A stretch of DNA of 64,000 nt from Pseudanabaena yagii GIHE-NHR1. Its GTDB lineage: Bacteria; Cyanobacteriota; Cyanobacteriia; Pseudanabaenales; Pseudanabaenaceae. The translations under genes were made by a program, and so were the position numbers. Where the stretch lies: NCBI RefSeq assembly GCF_012863495.1, contig NZ_JAAVJL010000001.1:992001-1056000 (forward strand), given 5' to 3'. This document shows positions 3,332 through 58,024 of this stretch, in pieces. The number at the start of each line of letters is the position of its first letter. Positions within the stretch are counted from its first letter, which is position 1. A model generated the notes under the pieces. It did not search any database. It was not told the origin of the DNA and was given only the letters and a program-made list of their open reading frames with translations.

Positions 3332-3832
3332 TCAAAATGTAGGCAGTGACCAACCGTTATTAGACAATGTACCTGCATGGATACGATCTAAGGCTCTTTT
3401 ACCACCCCAGCGATCGACAATTTTATCGTCATATTCATCAGCAATTTCCATCACTGCCTTTACGGAAGCTTCCAATTCTTTCATGCTGCAAGTTGAACCA
3501 ACGATGGAATGTTCAAAGAGAATTTCATTGTCTGGTGAAATTCCAAAAGCGCCAAAAATCATCTTGGCATTTTCTTCTAATAAATATCGCATCAGTTCAG
3601 GTTTTAATTCAGCTCCGACCACTACATACGATCGCGTATTAATTACCGCATCATTTTCGTCCCAAGGAAAAACTAATATTTCTACTAAGGCTGATCCGAC
3701 AAACATTCCTAATCCGGGAAAATCTTGGCGAGCGCAGGGATATTTGCCAAAAATCTCTTGGATCCACGTTACTACTTTTTCATAGCAGGCTTCTTGAGCG
3801 CTAGTTTGGAATTTCAAGTTATTTGCCTCCAT
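3332..3832 (-). CDS. YbjN / type III secretion chaperone-like fold protein
   Basis: A 166-aa soluble protein taken from the ATG giving MEANNLKFQTSAQEACYEKV. An ATG 22 codons upstream would add a hydrophobic leader (MGIVLISLATILIAKIAQF) that looks like non-coding drift, although a real anchor cannot be excluded. The body has the alternating strands and helices of the YbjN/CesT-like fold: VGSALVEILVFPWDENDAVINTRSYVV..PELMRYLLEENAKMIFGAFGISPDNEILFEHSIVG. In cyanobacteria such proteins are conserved and of unknown role, sometimes labelled secretion chaperones by fold alone. No secretion genes are nearby. Transcribed away from metK. Confidence 0.7.
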   Translation of the reverse strand: MEANNLKFQTSAQEACYEKVVTWIQEIFGKYPCARQDFPGLGMFVGSALVEILVFPWDENDAVINTRSYVVVGAELKPELMRYLLEENAKMIFGAFGISPDNEILFEHSIVGSTCSMKELEASVKAVMEIADEYDDKIVDRWGGKRALDRIHAGTLSNNGWSLPTF

Positions 3833-3939
3833 AGGTTGATCAAACTGGGCGATTTTGGCAATCAGTATAGTAGCTAAGCTAATCAGAACTATACCCATAG
3901 GCAGTTACATTTTCCAAGCATTATTTGAATATTTTCCAA

Positions 3940-43886: not shown

Positions 43887-45383
43887 ACTGGAATTTAGAC
43901 TAAGTTGATTAAGAGAATCAGAAAAAGAGCAGGAAAAAGTGACCCAGAAAACGGAGAACTGAGTAAAAGCAAGAGAGAGAAAAAGAGAATATTGAAAGTT
44001 AGGAATTAAGGTAGTCTTGATTGACCTTTTTCGAGCGAGAAGCTCGTTTTTTGACGACAGGAAAGCGAGAAAAAGGAGAACGCTTGCGTCCAGATTTCCA
44101 ACCGAGAGACTTACCACGAGGTTGGGGAGAACAAGCAGGAGAGCCAATCCTGACCAAAAGTGCGGCAAAGCCCTGAGCGACTCGACCAAAATTAAGATTG
44201 GTTTGAGGTTTCTGCCAAGGCAAAGGAGTATCAATAACCAGTTGACGAGCCAACCACAATTGCCAAGAGAGTAAAGGCATAAGGTCACTCCAACGCAAAG
44301 CTTGCTGAGGAGTCAACAAATGGGGAAGAGTCCAATGTAATCTTTGTTTGGCAAAACGATACCAATGGTCGATGGCAAAACGACGTAAGTACAAGCGCCA
44401 AAGGGAGTCTAAAGTCGGCATCTGTTCACCCACCCAAGCTAACCACAAACCAGAGCAATGAGAATGTGTAACTCGAATAACTTGAATATGTCGTTGGGCT
44501 GCTTGCCGAAAGTGTAAGTTAGACCATTGCTGGATTTGCACCTGTCCAACCGTCTCATCTTCTAAGCTAAAAGTTGCCGATGGCTCTCCCCAACTATCAG
44601 CATTGGCAAGTTGGAATTTATCCCCATGCTTACGAGGACGACCATAACCACTGTAGGGCGCAGGGGCTTTGTATAAGCATCGGTTAGGACGTAGACGTAT
44701 TAGTAAATCGGCAGGGATATCCTCAGTCAAATTCATAAAGACGGCACTGCCATATTCACTGTCGTAAGTAGCGATTGGTCTTACCGTTAAATCTCGACAT
44801 ACTTGACTCAGTTGGAATGCGGCTCTTTGCCCTGCTGTCTCAAAACTACTGATCCGCTCGTGACATAACGGGATTGCCCAACTCCCTGTCATCTCTGGTA
44901 TCCATGCCAAGGTGCTGTAGTCATGCCCTAACACGATCGGTTTGTTCCCTTCTACCAAATTCGGTTGATGCACAAAACTCCTGTCTTTTAGCGTTTTGGC
45001 ATGGGGTCTTCCCCATCCTGTATGGTCTCCTGCTAGCAAAGGGCGGATGTCTTTGGGTATTTGTTCCACACATAACCGTCTTATCCTGCCTCGGTTGGGG
45101 CGACTGTCTTTTAATGATTCATACAGACTTGACCATTTTCTTCGATACACTGCGGATAACGATAATTCTACAAATGATTTCACTCTCGGACTGGTCAATA
45201 CTGCATCCATCAAGTCAAATATTGCATCCCGTCCGTTCCCTAAAAATCTATATACCTGTTGACGAAAGTCTTGTAGTTTATCAATAATCATGGCTGTAGA
45301 TGTCTCTTTACTTTTCATCTACTTTAGGCAGTTTGTATCTCTTTTACTCTGCCTTTTTTACCTTTTTTAGTCTAAACTCCAGT
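43887..45383 (-). mobile_element. Complete insertion sequence with terminal inverted repeats and 7-bp direct repeat
   Basis: About 1,497 bp. The left end ACTGGAATTTAGACTAA and right end TTAGTCTAAACTCCAGT are inverted repeats with one mismatch in 17. The direct repeat TAATTTT flanks both sides (43880-43886 and 45384-45390), which fits a target-site duplication. It encodes one intact transposase, so this is a young, probably active or recently active copy. Confidence 0.85.
43999..45318 (-). CDS. Transposase (IS701-like / NF041680 type)
   Basis: A 439-aa DDE-type transposase. The text AGDHTGWGRPHAKTLKDRSFVHQPNLVEGNKPIVLGHDYSTLAW holds the first Asp; ATYDSEYGSAVF holds the second. The third acidic position probably lies in FAIDHWYRFAKQRLHWTLPHL, where this copy reads Asp instead of the Glu I would expect. 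The C-terminus is strongly basic (KSLGWKSGRKRSPFSRFPVVKKRASRSKK). It has no frameshift or internal stop. It is the only gene inside the insertion sequence. Confidence 0.85.
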   Translation of the reverse strand: MKSKETSTAMIIDKLQDFRQQVYRFLGNGRDAIFDLMDAVLTSPRVKSFVELSLSAVYRRKWSSLYESLKDSRPNRGRIRRLCVEQIPKDIRPLLAGDHTGWGRPHAKTLKDRSFVHQPNLVEGNKPIVLGHDYSTLAWIPEMTGSWAIPLCHERISSFETAGQRAAFQLSQVCRDLTVRPIATYDSEYGSAVFMNLTEDIPADLLIRLRPNRCLYKAPAPYSGYGRPRKHGDKFQLANADSWGEPSATFSLEDETVGQVQIQQWSNLHFRQAAQRHIQVIRVTHSHCSGLWLAWVGEQMPTLDSLWRLYLRRFAIDHWYRFAKQRLHWTLPHLLTPQQALRWSDLMPLLSWQLWLARQLVIDTPLPWQKPQTNLNFGRVAQGFAALLVRIGSPACSPQPRGKSLGWKSGRKRSPFSRFPVVKKRASRSKKVNQDYLNS

Positions 45384-47878: not shown

Positions 47879-49480
47879 TTAGTAGTTACGTTTAAATGAC
47901 TCTAGCCATTCACGCAATTGTTGAGTAGCAATCTCTTTACCTCCAAGACCAAAGGCAACAGCGATCGCAACGGCAATTGCACCAGTCAGTAACCCAAAGG
48001 CAAGATCAACAATATTGCTAGCAACACCAATCTGCTTAAGAGCCATCGCTGTAATCAGAACAACAATGGAAATCCTTGCCGCATGACCAAGAATTCTAGC
48101 TTGTCGTCCACCTGTACTAGAAATCAGATTAAATGCCAGATTGGCAAGATATAAACCAATACCAAAGATAATTACACCACTTAGTACTTGACCTGCAACT
48201 TGCAAGATTCCAAACACAATGCGGGTAAGAGCACTAATTTGTAAGACATCGGTTGCGGCGGCGATAGCTACGAGAATAATCGCAATGAACACGATGATAC
48301 CGACAACTTGCGAAGGCGTTTGTTGAGGTAGAGTCGTACTTTCTTTATTCTCAGGATCTTCGTTTGCTGCGGAGTCACTAGGAGGAATTGCGGCGATCGC
48401 AGGAAATCCTAACCATTGCAATATATTGTTAAATCCTAGACCTGTGAGAATTCCCGAAACAATATCTCTAGCAAACTGACCAATAAAATAGGCAACAGTC
48501 AGAATAACGATGGCTACGAAGATTTGAGGAAGGAATCGCAATACTTGATCGAGCATTGCTGTTGCTGGACGCGAGATTGCGCCAACTTCTAAAGCCTCTA
48601 ACGTGGATATAGCTGTGGGAATTAGAATCAGTACGTAAAGGAAATTCCCAACTACTTGAGAAAGAGTATATTCAGTTTGATTGCTCGCCCAGCGTCGTAG
48701 GAATTGATCGGCTCCGCTAGTAGCTAGGAGATTAGTCACAATTCGCTTAACCACTTGAGCAATCAACCAGCCGATACCACCGATAATTACTGCCTTGAGA
48801 ATTTTCGGTAGAGCACTCAAAATTTGATTGACTAGGTTTTGCAAGGGTTGGAGCGCCTGTACTAAACCTAGAGCATCCAAAACTAAAGGCAAAAATAGCA
48901 GCAGGATAAACCAATACAAAGCCGAAGATAAGGTTTCACTAAGAGGTAAAGCCTCGGATTTTGATTCGGTAGCATCGCCGTTAACCTGTGCATTTACCTT
49001 GTCGTCAATTTTGGCGGATTTCAAGAAGCTACCAACAAGCAATTTGCTGATGGTTGCTAAAACCCATGCAATCCCAATTAAGAGTGCTGCCCCACCAAGT
49101 TTTGGTAAAAATGATGTGATTTGACCTAGAAAACTATTTAATGGGGTGGCAACTGCATCTAATTTTAGGAACTGGAAAAATGCGACTAAAGTAAATAGCA
49201 AAATAATCCAGAAAATCGTAGTGCCAGCCCATTTCTCAATAGGGAAGGCGCTGCTACGAGAGCCTGTTAACCAATTTGCTAACTTATTGTCAATATTTGT
49301 GCGTCTCAGAAAATTTTCTGTTATAGAGGCAAAAACTATGGCAATTACCCAACCACCGACTAAAATTGCGATCGCAAATACAAGTTGCAATACTAGTCCA
49401 TCGGGTTTAAGCAAATCTTCAATTGCAAATCCTTTCGCTGTTGACGTTTGAGCTAACAGGAAAGAGGGAAATTCGTGCAT
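47879..49480 (-). CDS. Mechanosensitive ion channel family protein with repeated TM-helix units
   Basis: A 533-aa polytopic protein with about 10-12 hydrophobic segments. Four similar units appear to contain a helix plus an amphipathic LPK-type segment (FLGQITSFLPKLGGAALLIGIAWVLA, LVNQILSALPKILKAVIIGGIGWLIAQ, MLDQVLRFLPQIFVAIVILTVAYFIGQ, GILQVAGQVLSGVIIFGIGLYLA). These match the conserved-TM-helix repeat of the MscS-related family found in cyanobacteria. It likely releases solutes under osmotic downshock, but a classical MscS beta-domain is not evident. Start at ATG behind GAGGTG. Confidence 0.85.
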   Translation of the reverse strand: MHEFPSFLLAQTSTAKGFAIEDLLKPDGLVLQLVFAIAILVGGWVIAIVFASITENFLRRTNIDNKLANWLTGSRSSAFPIEKWAGTTIFWIILLFTLVAFFQFLKLDAVATPLNSFLGQITSFLPKLGGAALLIGIAWVLATISKLLVGSFLKSAKIDDKVNAQVNGDATESKSEALPLSETLSSALYWFILLLFLPLVLDALGLVQALQPLQNLVNQILSALPKILKAVIIGGIGWLIAQVVKRIVTNLLATSGADQFLRRWASNQTEYTLSQVVGNFLYVLILIPTAISTLEALEVGAISRPATAMLDQVLRFLPQIFVAIVILTVAYFIGQFARDIVSGILTGLGFNNILQWLGFPAIAAIPPSDSAANEDPENKESTTLPQQTPSQVVGIIVFIAIILVAIAAATDVLQISALTRIVFGILQVAGQVLSGVIIFGIGLYLANLAFNLISSTGGRQARILGHAARISIVVLITAMALKQIGVASNIVDLAFGLLTGAIAVAIAVAFGLGGKEIATQQLREWLESFKRNY

Positions 49481-49679
49481 ATTACACCTCAAAGCTGAAC
49501 AATTAAGGAGTATCCTCTTCCGTATCTTAAGTGGAGATATCCCGAAAAAAAAGTCACTAATAATTAAGGTTTTTCCTAAACATAAAGAAAAACCTAATTA
49601 TTTGCGACTTTTAAGCGTCTCAAGAACATAAAAATCGCTCAGCAGCTTCAATAGAGGAATTTTTAAAAACTTGGCGAAA

Positions 49680-50842: not shown

Positions 50843-50990
50843 TAACGTCAGTTAGGTTTAAGCTGGTAAATTTTCAAAGCCTAAAAGTAAAAGCCTTGCT
50901 AAGCAAGGCTTTTACCTTTAGGCTTTGAGAGAAGGTTTGAGTAGCAAACCTTCTCTCAAAGCCTGTTTTAAATTATCCCGAACTCGCGTT
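50843..50990. repeat. MITE-like repeat with two overlapping hairpins
   Basis: The ends TAACGTCAGTTAGGTTTAAGC (left) and ATTATCCCGAACTCGCGTT (right) match, in reverse, the ends of the unit at 59295-59361. Inside are a 26-bp-arm hairpin (50875-50927, one mismatch) and a 19-bp-arm perfect hairpin (50921-50963). They share GGCTTTG, so only one of the two full stems can form at a time. Confidence 0.75.
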
Positions 50991-50996
50991 AAATAT

Positions 50997-51051
50997 AAAA
51001 ACCAAAAGACTATGGCGCACGCTCCGCGTGCGCCATAGTCTTTTGGTTTTT
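50997..51051. repeat. 26-bp-arm perfect hairpin
   Basis: Arms AAAAACCAAAAGACTATGGC+GCACGC and complement around TCC, immediately followed by TTAATTATGCCTAGCTACTT, the end shared with the 39.7-kb element. Confidence 0.85.
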
Positions 51052-51239: not shown

Positions 51240-51710
51240 ATGCTAACGATGAATCGCACTTTAGATGAGAAAACTAGTGACGTTGAGCATGTTTATCTTA
51301 CTGACAGCGACATTTTTAATTTAGAGCGTTTTGCTAATACCTTCTCACTGCGTGTCAAGACCTATGGTCTATTGCGCGATCGCGCTGAGGAAATTACCAT
51401 CAAGACCCTTAAACTCTTGGCTCAGCAATATCCTGAGTTGGTACACAAGCAGTTGGCACGTTGTAAATATGACATGACCAATATGATTCGATACACATCA
51501 CTATCCATCTTGCGTGATGATGAGCTTTTCTTCCGAGAAACCTTGATGGATTGGTTGGCAAATATCATTAACTCCTATCAAGTTGCGAAGGAATGCTCTA
51601 CTTGCTATCGACTAATGCAAACGGTCATTGATGAGATGCTTCCTTCTGAATGTGCAATGTTGGTTAAGCCCTATTCTGAGCTAGCTGTTTCTGCATTAAT
51701 GAACGCCTAG
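51240..51710 (+). CDS. Orphan phycobiliprotein-like subunit
   Basis: A 156-aa globin-fold protein of the phycobilisome family. The segment CKYDMTNMIRYTSLSILRDD can be laid gaplessly on the allophycocyanin-type [20 protein letters not shown]: the bilin-attachment Cys, the Asp three residues later and the Arg nine residues later are all kept. Outside this core it is highly divergent (e.g. ETLMDWLANIINSYQVAKECSTCYRLMQ), and it is not a standard Apc/Cpc subunit. It probably binds one bilin. It is followed 98 bp later by a two-domain linker on the same strand, so the pair may make a small specialised antenna or regulator. No partner alpha/beta subunit and no bilin lyase lie nearby. Confidence 0.8.
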   Translation: MLTMNRTLDEKTSDVEHVYLTDSDIFNLERFANTFSLRVKTYGLLRDRAEEITIKTLKLLAQQYPELVHKQLARCKYDMTNMIRYTSLSILRDDELFFRETLMDWLANIINSYQVAKECSTCYRLMQTVIDEMLPSECAMLVKPYSELAVSALMNA

Positions 51711-51808: not shown

Positions 51809-53119
51809 ATGGATACTCATACCCCCACCACTATTGACCGTAATTCTACCGAGGCAGAGCGCCAAAACGCACTTCAGCAAATTTATGCTCAAGTGCTAGA
51901 GCGTCAACCCTATGCTTCTGAACGCAAGGAGATTGCCAAGATTGAGAAGGACTTTCTCAAGGGCAAATTGGGAGTACGTCATTTTATTGGCGAACTAGTC
52001 ATGTCATCGGTCTATCTCAACAGTTTTTATCGTGACTGTTCCAATCTCAAGTTTGTGGAATGGAGCTTTAAGCATATCCTCGGTCGAGCCTTAAGAGACA
52101 ACGAGGAGATTGCGAAGTACATGAATTTGCTGATGATGGAGGGGGTATCGGCATTTTTTCATGAGATTCTTGGCTCTGAGGAATATCGCAAAGCCTTTGG
52201 TAGTTTTACAATTCCCTATGCGCGTGATGTCAAGTTTTATGATTCACCTCGCAACTATCTCCAGACCAATCTCTTAAAGCAAGAACATGTTGGTCAACGC
52301 GGTAAAATCGTACCGATGATCTATTGGCAACGGCTAGGTTTAGATTGCGAAACGGGAACCTGTGTGATGCCTGAGGAAATGCAACACAATGCAGCAGCAG
52401 TTAGTCATTCTGTCCATTCCGCAGCAGATCGTCAAAACCTACTGGCGCAAATCTATACTCAAGTGCTAGAACGCCAACCCTACGCTTCGGAACATCACGA
52501 GATTGCGGATTTAGAGAAGAATTTTCTAGCTGGTAAATTGGATGTCAGACATTTCCTTGGTGAATTGGTAATGTCTAATCTATATTTAGATAACTTCTAT
52601 CGTGACAGTTCTAACTTGAAGTTTATGGAGTTTAGCTTTAAGCACCTTCTTGGTAGAACCCTTCACGACAAGGAAGAAATTAGCCTCTATACCGATATAC
52701 TCACAAAGCAAGGTGTGGCTGTCTTCTTCCATAAAATCTTTGACTCCGCAGAATATCGCACCGCCTTTGGTTGTCACACCATTCCCTATAACCGCGATGT
52801 CAAATTCCATGATTCCCCTCGCAACTATTTGCAAAGCGATTTAGTCGAGCATGAACATGTAGGACAAAGAGGCAAAGCAGTCCCTAGCCTCTATTGGCAA
52901 GAACTAGGCATGAATTGCGAGACGGGAACCTGCGTAATGCCTGATACCCCTGCTGAGCAATATATTCCTGAGCCAACCAAGACACAGGAACCTGTATCCC
53001 GATCGCTCAATGAAGAAATCGAAGAACTTTTACAGATGCTGCAAAATAGCGATGCCCGCCAAGTGCTCCAAAGCATGAATGAAAAACAGCGATCGCTACT
53101 TCGCAATTTAGCCAAGTAA
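51809..53119 (+). CDS. Tandem phycobilisome linker (two REP/pbs_linker_poly domains)
   Basis: A 436-aa soluble protein. Two linker domains, about 20-195 and 210-385, each contain QIYAQVLERQPYASE, VRHFIGELVMSSVYLNSFYRD, FVEWSFKHILGRAL and FGSFTIPYARDV(or N)..DSPRNYLQ. The two copies are about 70% identical, pointing to internal duplication. Each copy ends with an unusual CETGTCVMP. A short C-terminal helix pair (SRSLNEEIEELLQMLQNSDARQVLQSMNEKQRSLLRNL) is unlike CpcD or FNR tails. Rod-core CpcG linkers carry one such domain and ApcE two to four plus a chromophore domain, so this is neither. Starts at ATG behind GCAGGAG. Confidence 0.88.
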   Translation: MDTHTPTTIDRNSTEAERQNALQQIYAQVLERQPYASERKEIAKIEKDFLKGKLGVRHFIGELVMSSVYLNSFYRDCSNLKFVEWSFKHILGRALRDNEEIAKYMNLLMMEGVSAFFHEILGSEEYRKAFGSFTIPYARDVKFYDSPRNYLQTNLLKQEHVGQRGKIVPMIYWQRLGLDCETGTCVMPEEMQHNAAAVSHSVHSAADRQNLLAQIYTQVLERQPYASEHHEIADLEKNFLAGKLDVRHFLGELVMSNLYLDNFYRDSSNLKFMEFSFKHLLGRTLHDKEEISLYTDILTKQGVAVFFHKIFDSAEYRTAFGCHTIPYNRDVKFHDSPRNYLQSDLVEHEHVGQRGKAVPSLYWQELGMNCETGTCVMPDTPAEQYIPEPTKTQEPVSRSLNEEIEELLQMLQNSDARQVLQSMNEKQRSLLRNLAK

Positions 53120-53162
53120 CAAAAATGAAGTGCCTTACTAAGCAAGGCACTTCATTTTTGTT
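53116..53162 (+). terminator. 20-bp-arm hairpin after the linker gene
   Basis: TAACAAAAATGAAGTGCCTT and complement, loop ACTAAGC; the left arm starts within the stop codon. Ends the phycobiliprotein-linker unit. Confidence 0.8.
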
Positions 53163-53198
53163 ATATATTTGGATTCTCAACGTTGAGTTAACTGCCCT

Positions 53199-56103: not shown

Positions 56104-56904
56104 TTACAAATACATTGAGTAGCTGATGTTGGTTGGAGCGATCGCTAGTAGTAATTTTTGAGTGATTCTAATTAGTAATAATCGCCTCAAAGCAATGTCG
56201 CGATCAACTCCAAAGATGCGGCAGTGATCGTAAAAATCTAAAAAAGATTTTGCAAGTGCTTGCGATAGCTTCGATCTACTTAGAGCATGATCTGAAACAA
56301 GGGAATGCTCTTGTTCACGATTTAGAAAGTCAGCGATCGCTAAATTTTGCATATATAGGCTAATTTCTAAAGGCTCTGTGAATATTGCATTGGTGATAAT
56401 CGAACTATCAATCAATATCGATGGCAATAGTAAATTTTCTCTATAAGCTAATCTAATTAAGGCACAACAACGCGCATAGGCATATTGTAGGACTGGGGGA
56501 GGAGATAACATTGTGTGATTAGAGATCCTATTATTTTGCCAAAATCCCTGATCGTAATTCATGCCATAGGGTTGCCAAGATTCTAGTGCTAGTAAATTGG
56601 TAAATATATATTGATCGCTTAAAACAATATTGAGCCAACCTTTACCAAAGGCGTGAAGTTGCCATTGCGATGAAATTTCTGGATTTTGTGAACAGGTTTG
56701 AGCGATCGCTTCAGCAATATTGATTGCCTTATTGTTCAAACGTTGAGAAATCGCTAGAGCAATCGCTGATGTGTAATGAGCCGCATACTTGGGATAGCAG
56801 GCAGTGATCGATATTTCCTTAGGAGCGATCGCAGTCTGAAATATTGCCTTAATGGCATCAGCGATCGCCATTTGAATCGCTTGGGATGGAGAAGTAAACT
56901 TCAC
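56104..56904 (-). CDS. ArgRS-like protein lacking the catalytic core (N-terminal + DALR domains)
   Basis: About 266 aa from a GTG start. The first ~90 residues resemble the arginyl-tRNA synthetase N-terminal additional domain (AIADAIKAIFQ..ISITACYPKYAAHYTSAIALAISQRL..FGKGWLNIVLSDQYI). The last ~120 resemble the DALR anticodon-binding domain (VLQYAYARCCALIRLA..LARSFLDFYDHCRIFGVDRDIALRRLLLIRITQKLLLAIA). HIGH and KMSKS motifs and the whole Rossmann core are missing. Such proteins are conserved in cyanobacteria and their role is unknown; tRNA-Arg binding is plausible. The longest frame (to 56991) overlaps the upstream channel gene. Confidence 0.78.
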   Translation of the reverse strand: MKFTSPSQAIQMAIADAIKAIFQTAIAPKEISITACYPKYAAHYTSAIALAISQRLNNKAINIAEAIAQTCSQNPEISSQWQLHAFGKGWLNIVLSDQYIFTNLLALESWQPYGMNYDQGFWQNNRISNHTMLSPPPVLQYAYARCCALIRLAYRENLLLPSILIDSSIITNAIFTEPLEISLYMQNLAIADFLNREQEHSLVSDHALSRSKLSQALAKSFLDFYDHCRIFGVDRDIALRRLLLIRITQKLLLAIAPTNISYSMYL

Positions 56905-56914
56905 AGTTTTTATT

Positions 56915-58024
56915 TCACGCTTCTTTAGTACGTGGCAATCTGAGAATATTTGGCTTTTTAGAGAGTGGACTGAGAATTTGATTGAGGGCACGAAGTTGTT
57001 CAGGGGTTCCCATCGAAATTAGAACGTCTCCCTGCAAAATTTCAGTATTACCATCGGGACCTGCGATCACATCGCCATCAGCGCGGCGAATTGCTAATAC
57101 TAAAGCCCCTGTTTGCGATCGCAAACTAGCTTTTTTTAAAGACATGCCAATGTAACTAGGTTCATCAATGCGGTATTCCTCAATATAAAAGGAGCGATTT
57201 GAGCCTGCAATAATGCCATCCACAAAGTCCATTACCTGCGGACGCAGTGCTACTGCTGCCATGCGCTTACCCCCTGTAATATATGGGGAAATCACTTCAT
57301 CGGCTCCACCTCGACGCAGCTTTTTCATAGACTCTTCGGTGCTTGCTCGTGCGATCGCCCTAATATCAGGATTTAAAGTTTTGGCGGATAATACAGTGTA
57401 GAGATTTTCTGCATCCGATGGCAGGGCTGCCACAATGCAAATGGCTCGTTCTACCCCCGCTAGCAGGAGAGTATTATCAAGAGCCGCATCACCTTGTAAT
57501 GCGGGATAGCCCTCCTGCTCAGCCTGCTCAATCGTCACAGGATCACTATCAATAACTACAAATGGAATGCTTCCCTCCGCCGCAAATTCGGCGGTTACCT
57601 GTCGCCCCGTTCGCCCAAATCCACAAACGATATAGTGTTTGTCGAGTGATTCCATAACTTTTCTCTGCCGCCTTGCTTGAAAAATATTATAAATATGACC
57701 ATTAGCGATTGCTGTCGTAAACTGTGCTGCAATGTAGCTAATGCTAATTACCCCCATCACAATCAAGGTCATCGTAAATATCCGACCCTCCAAATGCAAA
57801 GGATTGGTTTCCCCATAGCCAATCGTGGCAAGGGTAATAATCGTCATATAGAGAGAATCAAACCAACTCCATCCTTCAATCAAGTGATAGCCTAAGGTTC
57901 CAATTATCACTAGACTAACTAAAATTCCCACATTAACCAGCAAGGTACGCTGATATTGCAACAACTCACGTTGCAAAACAATTGGTTGTAACTGTTGGTA
58001 GTTAAGAGAACTTTTGGGAATCAT
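56915..58024 (-). CDS. Potassium channel with TrkA-N and TrkA-C domains
   Basis: A 369-aa channel subunit. Two membrane helices (about 31-52 and 90-110) flank a pore loop with selectivity filter TLATIGYGE. A TrkA-N Rossmann domain follows (HYIVCGFGRTGRQVTAEFAAEGSIPFVVIDSDPVTIEQAEQEGYPALQGDAALDNTLL). The C-terminal TrkA-C/RCK-C part is SYIGMSLKKASLRSQTGALVLAIRRADGDVIAGPDGNTEILQGDVLISMGTPEQL. This is the MthK/Kch layout, gated by cytoplasmic ligand. It lies 10 bp upstream of the DALR gene, a likely operon. Confidence 0.94.
   Translation of the reverse strand: MIPKSSLNYQQLQPIVLQRELLQYQRTLLVNVGILVSLVIIGTLGYHLIEGWSWFDSLYMTIITLATIGYGETNPLHLEGRIFTMTLIVMGVISISYIAAQFTTAIANGHIYNIFQARRQRKVMESLDKHYIVCGFGRTGRQVTAEFAAEGSIPFVVIDSDPVTIEQAEQEGYPALQGDAALDNTLLLAGVERAICIVAALPSDAENLYTVLSAKTLNPDIRAIARASTEESMKKLRRGGADEVISPYITGGKRMAAVALRPQVMDFVDGIIAGSNRSFYIEEYRIDEPSYIGMSLKKASLRSQTGALVLAIRRADGDVIAGPDGNTEILQGDVLISMGTPEQLRALNQILSPLSKKPNILRLPRTKEA

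Follow-up and report, generated by a model that had tools for sequence, protein, structure and literature searches.

Bilin biosynthesis-associated globins (BBAGs) have been described as a lineage sister to the antenna phycobiliproteins, and in cyanobacteria they are defined by gene clusters with V4R and Fe-S genes (Rockwell, Martin, Lagarias 2023, PMC10151467). In the available text of that study, the BBAGs tested bind bilins without strong fluorescence and have a function that is not yet known, a CXRD motif is named for BBAG-1 and BBAG-3, and the word 'linker' is used on two occasions in the main text, one concerning phycobilisomes in general and the other a cloning linker. Bilin binding that needs no lyase is a further trait of the group. 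AplA is another phycobiliprotein-like protein that, in the accessible part of PMC2246261, is described as outside the phycobilisome, a character in which the globin discussed here may resemble it; it is homologous to ApcA and its gene occurs upstream of cpcGII in marine Synechococcus. Among the linkers, the PF00427 domain and fold are common to CpcG, CpcC, ApcE and CpcL, and several PF00427 stretches within one chain are known from the multi-domain linkers ApcH, CpcJ and CpcN of Anthocerotibacter (8imk, 8iml, 8imn) and from Glr1262 and Glr2806 of Gloeobacter, with ApcH carrying two such stretches in 431 aa. The available portion of PMC10053587, on the linker types of thermophiles, makes no mention of a Cys-tailed family of the kind described below, and neither a Cys-tailed linker nor the pairing of a linker with a BBAG-type globin appeared in the titles and abstract openings among the literature matches listed, a set that largely excludes subscription papers.

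The window analyzed here, a stretch of 64,000 nucleotides from Pseudanabaena yagii GIHE-NHR1, carries a linker gene and a globin gene side by side (Table 1). The linker has the domain and fold of CpcG, CpcC, ApcE and CpcL and differs from them in its placement in a separate clade and its CxxGxC tail. It resembles the multi-domain linkers in the number of its PF00427 stretches; it differs in that its domains are 69% mutually identical and its two-domain form is restricted to one genus in the class sample. The globin, in turn, resembles the BBAGs in grouping with Fer2/V4R-clustered globins and in retaining the bilin Cys and Asp, and differs in its C-x-Y-D motif, its additional Cys119 and the presence of a linker gene where no V4R or Fe-S neighbor was found. 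This co-occurring BBAG-type globin, itself the carrier of an unusual conserved cysteine, was missed by the preliminary description of the locus.

The linker gene and its duplicated domains

The linker as a whole matches PF00427 at E 1.8e-69 (232.1 bits against a Pfam cut-off of 28.7), with individual domain scores of 122 and 117.2 bits, and its AlphaFold2 model superimposes on the solved PF00427 domains of 3ohw (VIA Z 20.5, 126 residues, rmsd 1.2) and 3pru (VIA Z 20.4, 134 residues, rmsd 1.0). The internal duplication that had been noted previously, with copies close to 70% identical, is borne out by a gap-free alignment in which the two halves share 120 of 174 aa (69%) and 363 of 524 nt, each half then running into the nonapeptide CETGTCVMP about 40 residues beyond the end of its PF00427 domain. 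The feature had been drawn to end at position 52960, which cuts off the C-terminal tail, as 58 aa of the protein remain beyond the second motif. This tail can be aligned in many single-domain relatives and is absent in two (L028 and L030). The cysteines are spaced C-x4-C and the family-wide pattern is C-x2-G-x-C. The two residues flanking the first motif, 179 and 186, have a strand or bridge assignment in the model, at low confidence and with no DSSP partners listed, and pLDDT values in the motif blocks are 66 and 56 for the first copy and 47 and 36 for the second. Terminator-like hairpins in a consensus scan, one 5′ of the globin gene and the other 3′ of the linker gene, are consistent with a two-gene unit.

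Table 1. Positions of the linker, the globin and associated features in the window
Feature	Coordinates	Strand	Basis
Terminator-like hairpin in the gap between the ABC-transporter gene and the globin gene	50919..50965	+	Consensus scan only
Phycobiliprotein-like globin (probable BBAG lineage), 156 aa	51240..51710	+	PF00502 E 2.4e-13, linkage, AlphaFold2, tree
Globin Cys75, bilin-attachment position (C-x-x-D)	51462..51464	+	60/60 linked globins
Globin Cys119, conserved	51594..51596	+	60/60 linked globins; not Cys in five antenna subunits
Two-domain linker with CxxGxC tails, 436 aa	51809..53119	+	ORF, PF00427 twice, same-genus orthologues
First PF00427 linker domain	51848..52225	+	Pfam
First CETGTCVMP motif, aa 180-188	52346..52372	+	Sequence and conservation
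Second PF00427 linker domain	52418..52795	+	Pfam
Second CETGTCVMP motif, aa 370-378	52916..52942	+	Sequence
Predicted C-terminal helical tail, helices aa 398-413, 416-422 and 425-435	53000..53116	+	AlphaFold2 model
Terminator-like hairpin 3′ of the linker	53117..53163	+	Consensus scan only

By domain and fold this is a PF00427 linker family, and by the features tested it is not CpcG, CpcL or ApcE. In a tree of linker domains, all 13 Cys-tail domains fall in one clade (support 100/100) on a long stem, apart from the CpcG of the window genome, and this clade adjoins the ApcE repeats only at 83/39; the tree used 43 of 111 ordinary domains, and of its labels CYS is reliable, but 'CpcG' and 'rod', assigned by a crude text rule, are not. 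The NCBIfam CpcG models, which are narrow 'exception' models, give at best 110.9 bits on the linker against a cut-off of 420. Neither comparison places the linker with CpcG, and a CpcG origin was dropped because of the low NCBIfam score and the separate clade. A hydrophobic C-terminal segment as in CpcL is absent from the linker, the C-terminus of which reads by eye as charged and polar, and a PF00502 domain as in ApcE was not found in the chain, where only PF00427 scored above its cut-off and DUF4214 fell below.

Conservation and history of the CxxGxC tail

The CxxGxC motif occurs in all 80 related loci, the best-scoring 80 of 91 from a peptide-pattern scan of named genomes that includes near-duplicates (several Nodosilinea, Planktothrix and Laspinema). 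Counted by domain it is present in 87 of 88, the exception being the second domain of L058, which is also the one miss among the eight alignment rows that reach the second motif. C180, G183 and C185 were invariant in a first alignment of 17 rows and are identical in all 49 rows of a larger one (the window sequence plus 48 loci from the set of 80), down to 41% identity, which is far above chance. The conserved segment extends upstream of the motif: numbered from the first Cys, Gly −15, Pro −11 and Leu −4 occur in 87/87 rows and Trp −7 in 82/87, counts that cover 78 of the 80 loci (without L077 and L078, which a text rule removed) and both domains of the window, with L058 entered once.

Ordinary linkers lack this feature. 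In 117 ordinary PF00427 domains, the region from 10 residues before the end of the match to 75 residues beyond it contains neither CxxGxC nor any C-x4-C. These controls are distinct strings from 65 loci and do not constitute a census; they comprise the 6 PF00427 loci of the window genome, 30 loci retrieved with a single CpcG as query and, from a check of linker-negative genomes that gave 30 loci, 29 of these. The thirtieth, L198, was excluded as part of the split Cys-tail linker of genome G598, the other part of which (L217) is a 93-codon frame below the 120-aa limit. The view that the spaced cysteines are foreign to standard linkers therefore stands for those examined, and the two observations that had been named as capable of overturning it, a motif common in ordinary linkers and cysteines not conserved in relatives, are both contradicted by these counts.

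The motif is not indispensable, since it is absent from the linkers of G438 and G394 in the class sample, where it was read in some of the 100 linkers and where each of these two stands beside a Cys119 globin, and from the L058 second domain. These tolerated losses would fit a structural remnant, that is, a linker paralogue under ordinary constraint in which the cysteines only cap the domain and have no redox or metal role. Such a remnant is quite improbable, as it sits poorly with the C, G and C kept in every one of the 49 rows and with the cysteine kept in the partner protein.

The linker was found in 100 of 388 class genomes, belonging to 45 of 160 sampled genera, and a phylum scan of 386 genomes gave a match at E ≤ 1e-40 in 16. 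In the class sample the two-domain form is confined to Pseudanabaena and a single domain is found elsewhere. Among the 26 Pseudanabaena genomes listed there, 20 have the linker, with two-domain frames (439-464 codons) in 11 and one-domain frames (249-295 codons) in 9, whereas outside the genus the open frames of the 80 linker-positive genomes never exceed 317 codons. Eight of the 80 named loci are two-domain (L048-L051, L054 and L058-L060), most of them labelled Pseudanabaena, with one Phormidium tenue and one uncultured cyanobacterium.

In a domain tree of 34 rows, in which the two-domain L058 was handled as one row, the second halves form a single clade (100/100) and the first halves are mixed with single-domain Pseudanabaena linkers (89/79). 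Because the second-half clade falls outside the group of first halves and single-domain Pseudanabaena linkers, the simplest history seems to be one duplication at the base of Pseudanabaena followed by several losses of the second domain. The duplication had been regarded as recent relative to the age of CpcG and ApcE, and of this the relative part can be retained, as it is younger than CpcG/ApcE; it is not recent within the species, its apparent origin lying at the base of the genus. The CxxGxC motif predates the duplication.

The globin partner and its neighborhood

The globin gene ends 98 nt upstream of the linker, and the two genes can with considerable confidence be called a conserved pair. 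In 59 of the 80 loci the gene directly upstream of the linker, without exception on the same strand, encodes a globin found by similarity to that of the window; with the window's own this makes 60 linked globins. In the other 21 loci a profile search returned no further globin neighbor; in the searchable genomes without linkage a globin occurs elsewhere in 18 of 19, with no strong match in G636. A globin is also beside the linker in 14 of 15 regions from the phylum scan. Pairing the linker and globin counts on the assumption that both cover the same 388 genomes, as their shared handles suggest, a globin at E ≤ 1e-38 is present in 98 of 100 linker-positive class genomes (G430 and G594 being without a strong match) versus 19 of 288 linker-negative ones, with the proviso that related genomes are not independent. 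The fractions become 78/100 versus 12/288 at E ≤ 1e-45, mainly because genus g197, in which the genes are unlinked, scores lower, and 100/100 versus 79/288 at E ≤ 1e-25, because more distant globins are then counted. Among the 19 linker-negative genomes, G598 has its linker split over two contigs. The co-occurrence is partly a matter of shared ancestry. Two Pseudanabaena genomes have the globin without the linker (L158 in G505 and L159 in G529); G505 keeps Cys119, and in L158 a DUF350-type gene directly follows the globin in the absence of the linker.

Within 4 kb no third partner conserved across lineages was found. The largest neighbor cluster, of 32 loci, is an artefact consisting of the linker itself, and the others shown cover at most 14 of the 80 loci and appear lineage-specific. 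In seven loci (L098, L100, L103, L109, L116, L120 and L124) a gene upstream of the pair comes from one family, of which a single piece was compared and found to match GvpL/GvpF gas-vesicle proteins. Within the window, a long palindrome 5′ of the globin gene (51001-51047) is a dispersed REP-like element, the 29-nt core of which has 35 strand-placements in the genome at up to 3 mismatches (21 forward and 14 reverse, with some sites on both strands) versus 0 for a reversed control, and its copies show matching changes in both arms. Further away are a minus-strand gene (56104-56991) for a protein of 295 aa that has the N-terminal domain of ArgRS and a DALR anticodon-binding domain and no catalytic-core match, and a DDE_5 transposase-type gene of 439 aa, also on the minus strand (43999-45318).

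The AlphaFold2 model of the globin (pLDDT 87.7) has a phycobiliprotein fold, with its best VIA Z of 18.7 to a far-red allophycocyanin. Both C75 and D78 are kept in 60/60 linked globins, and the same Cys and Asp are found in ApcA, ApcB, ApcD, ApcF and CpcB of the window genome. The motif reads C-K-Y-D and not CXRD, the Arg position being Tyr in 56/60 linked globins. In a globin tree, a split supported at 100/99 separates the eight antenna subunits of the window genome (ApcA, ApcB, ApcD, ApcF, two CpcA and two CpcB) from a group in which the window globin is joined by Fer2- and V4R-neighbored globins from its own genome. That tree included 17 of the 60 linked globins (the alignment covered 37), had no outgroup and no sequence from PMC10151467, and contained two long branches, L193 and L194, in its BBAG-side group. 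On this placement the globin falls with the BBAG-type globins and not with the antenna phycobiliproteins. No Pfam match to a V4R or Fe-S gene was found beside it in the ABC gene, the linker, the DUF350 gene, the 94-aa ORF, or the genes at 47882-49492 and 56107-56991.

Two BBAG-type clusters with Fer2 and V4R occur elsewhere in the window genome, L192 (G000:C2:269000-276000) and L194 (G000:C3:362000-368000), the globin of the latter having Gly in place of the bilin cysteine. A fourth BBAG-like globin, at 3353-3835 on the minus strand of L193 (G000:C1:3234000-3241000), has Trp for the bilin cysteine and Cys at 119. AplA was also considered as the identity of the window globin. Montgomery, in 2004, is said to have described a 28-aa N-terminal extension in AplA; the 156-aa window globin has no N-terminal extension, and this identity was dropped for that reason and because of the position of the globin among BBAG-type proteins in the tree. 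ApcD4 (8ddy_A, 184 aa) is, as a guess from its length, of the same type as AplA.

The main alternative to a role of its own for the pair is that the linker is an accessory linker of the ordinary phycobilisome by which a minor subunit, the globin, is fixed to the rods or core to act as terminal emitter or quencher, with the cysteines merely stabilizing the tail. The solved PF00427 chains listed are all parts of phycobilisomes or CpcL antennas and the globin fold is nearest that of far-red allophycocyanins, both of which agree with such an attachment, as does the proximity of the linker to cpcB/cpcA-type genes in three of the 80 loci (L076, L087 and L088). In these three the phycocyanin genes lie within about 6 kb and the linker is unlinked from the globin; the L088 linker is also near CpcC- and CpcG-type genes. 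Conversely, a comparison with 12 antenna proteins from the window genome (E ≤ 1e-25, ORFs of at least 80 aa) detected no relative besides the linker itself in the other 77 loci, which span up to 6 kb on each side, or in 14 of the 15 phylum-scan regions, the fifteenth (L042) being the same stretch as L088. Together with the position of the globin away from all eight antenna subunits of its own genome and the separate, long-stemmed clade of the linker, this makes attachment to the ordinary phycobilisome less likely than not, though it deserves more weight than the other alternatives.

Cys119 and a possible bilin assembly

The second conserved cysteine of the globin has no Cys counterpart in the antenna subunits compared, the corresponding residues being V, T, T, V and M in ApcA, ApcB, ApcF, CpcB and ApcD. 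Where linker and globin genes are both present and unlinked, Cys119 is found in the best-matching globin of 18 of 18 genomes, and second globin copies from those genomes have Ala at this position in all 6 fetched. Linker-negative genomes are mixed: of 19 globins read (the 19 of the E ≤ 1e-38 count minus G598, plus G610 from just outside the E limit), Cys is present in 9 and Ser, Ala, Val or Tyr in 10, with three of the nine Cys119 genomes (G558, G597 and G601) under 90% complete. A fixed three-cysteine site, combining the linker motif with Cys119, was considered and is kept as a possibility without being adopted, in view of the motif-less linkers beside Cys119 globins and the nine linker-negative genomes with Cys119.

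Cys119 lies 44 residues past the bilin Cys, and a gap-free count from there leads to a Trp in both CpcA of the window genome, which we take to be residue 128, a residue of the bilin pocket. This position, and the conservation of Cys119 in linker-positive genomes, are what might be seen in a light sensor with dual-cysteine photochemistry, in which the bilin would also bond, reversibly, to Cys119 and the linker would serve as output partner. Other alignments shift the mapping of Cys119 by one residue, and no output domain is present. Additionally, the BBAG-1 and BBAG-2 holoproteins tested were photoinactive in the available text of PMC10151467, and a sensor of this kind appears to be a long shot.

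The cysteines of the linker could themselves bind a bilin, either as a chromophore carrier, like gamma subunits, or as a helper that passes the bilin to the globin. The retained bilin cysteine of the partner and the joint retention of linker and globin cysteines are compatible with this, but a Cys pair four residues apart with a conserved Gly is, in our judgement, better suited to a tight hairpin than to a bilin site, and two motif-less linkers stand beside globins that keep both C75 and C119; bilin binding by the linker is accordingly rated as very improbable. A disulfide or metal hairpin is, in our judgement, the chemistry that CxxGxC would most likely adopt.

A scaffold role of the linker for the globin is marginally favored, an inference by analogy that is drawn because of the role of PF00427 in solved complexes. 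Use of CxxGxC as a redox or metal clip is put forward more tentatively, as a suggestion that has somewhat more against it than for it. The two combined, with the linker as a dedicated scaffold of a BBAG-lineage bilin globin and the CxxGxC hairpin as its clip, make a plausible proposal that stops a little short of an even call. As proposed, the globin would carry a bilin on Cys75 and form ring-like oligomers, as an allophycocyanin-like fold allows, and each PF00427 domain would sit in the center of one ring, as in phycobilisomes, such that the duplicated Pseudanabaena linker would hold two rings and the ancestral form one. Less surely, the CxxGxC segment may close as a disulfide hairpin or bind a metal, possibly with Cys119 of the globin or with a second linker, and the clip may lock or release the assembly according to its redox state. 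A still wider reading, conceivable and at present doubtful, is a bilin complex parallel to the phycobilisome, in which rings of BBAG-type globin are mounted on a dedicated linker, the CxxGxC clip and Cys119 make the assembly or the pigment state redox-responsive, and the number of domains sets the number of rings.

Should this be true, it would provide a physical role for a BBAG-like globin group and a case of linker-based assembly outside the antenna line. The co-occurrence of the linker with one BBAG-type globin group offers a handle on whether such globins assemble in rings, Pseudanabaena, with its change from one domain to two, provides a natural experiment in which linker length varies, and the kept cysteines would allow a simple test of redox or metal control.
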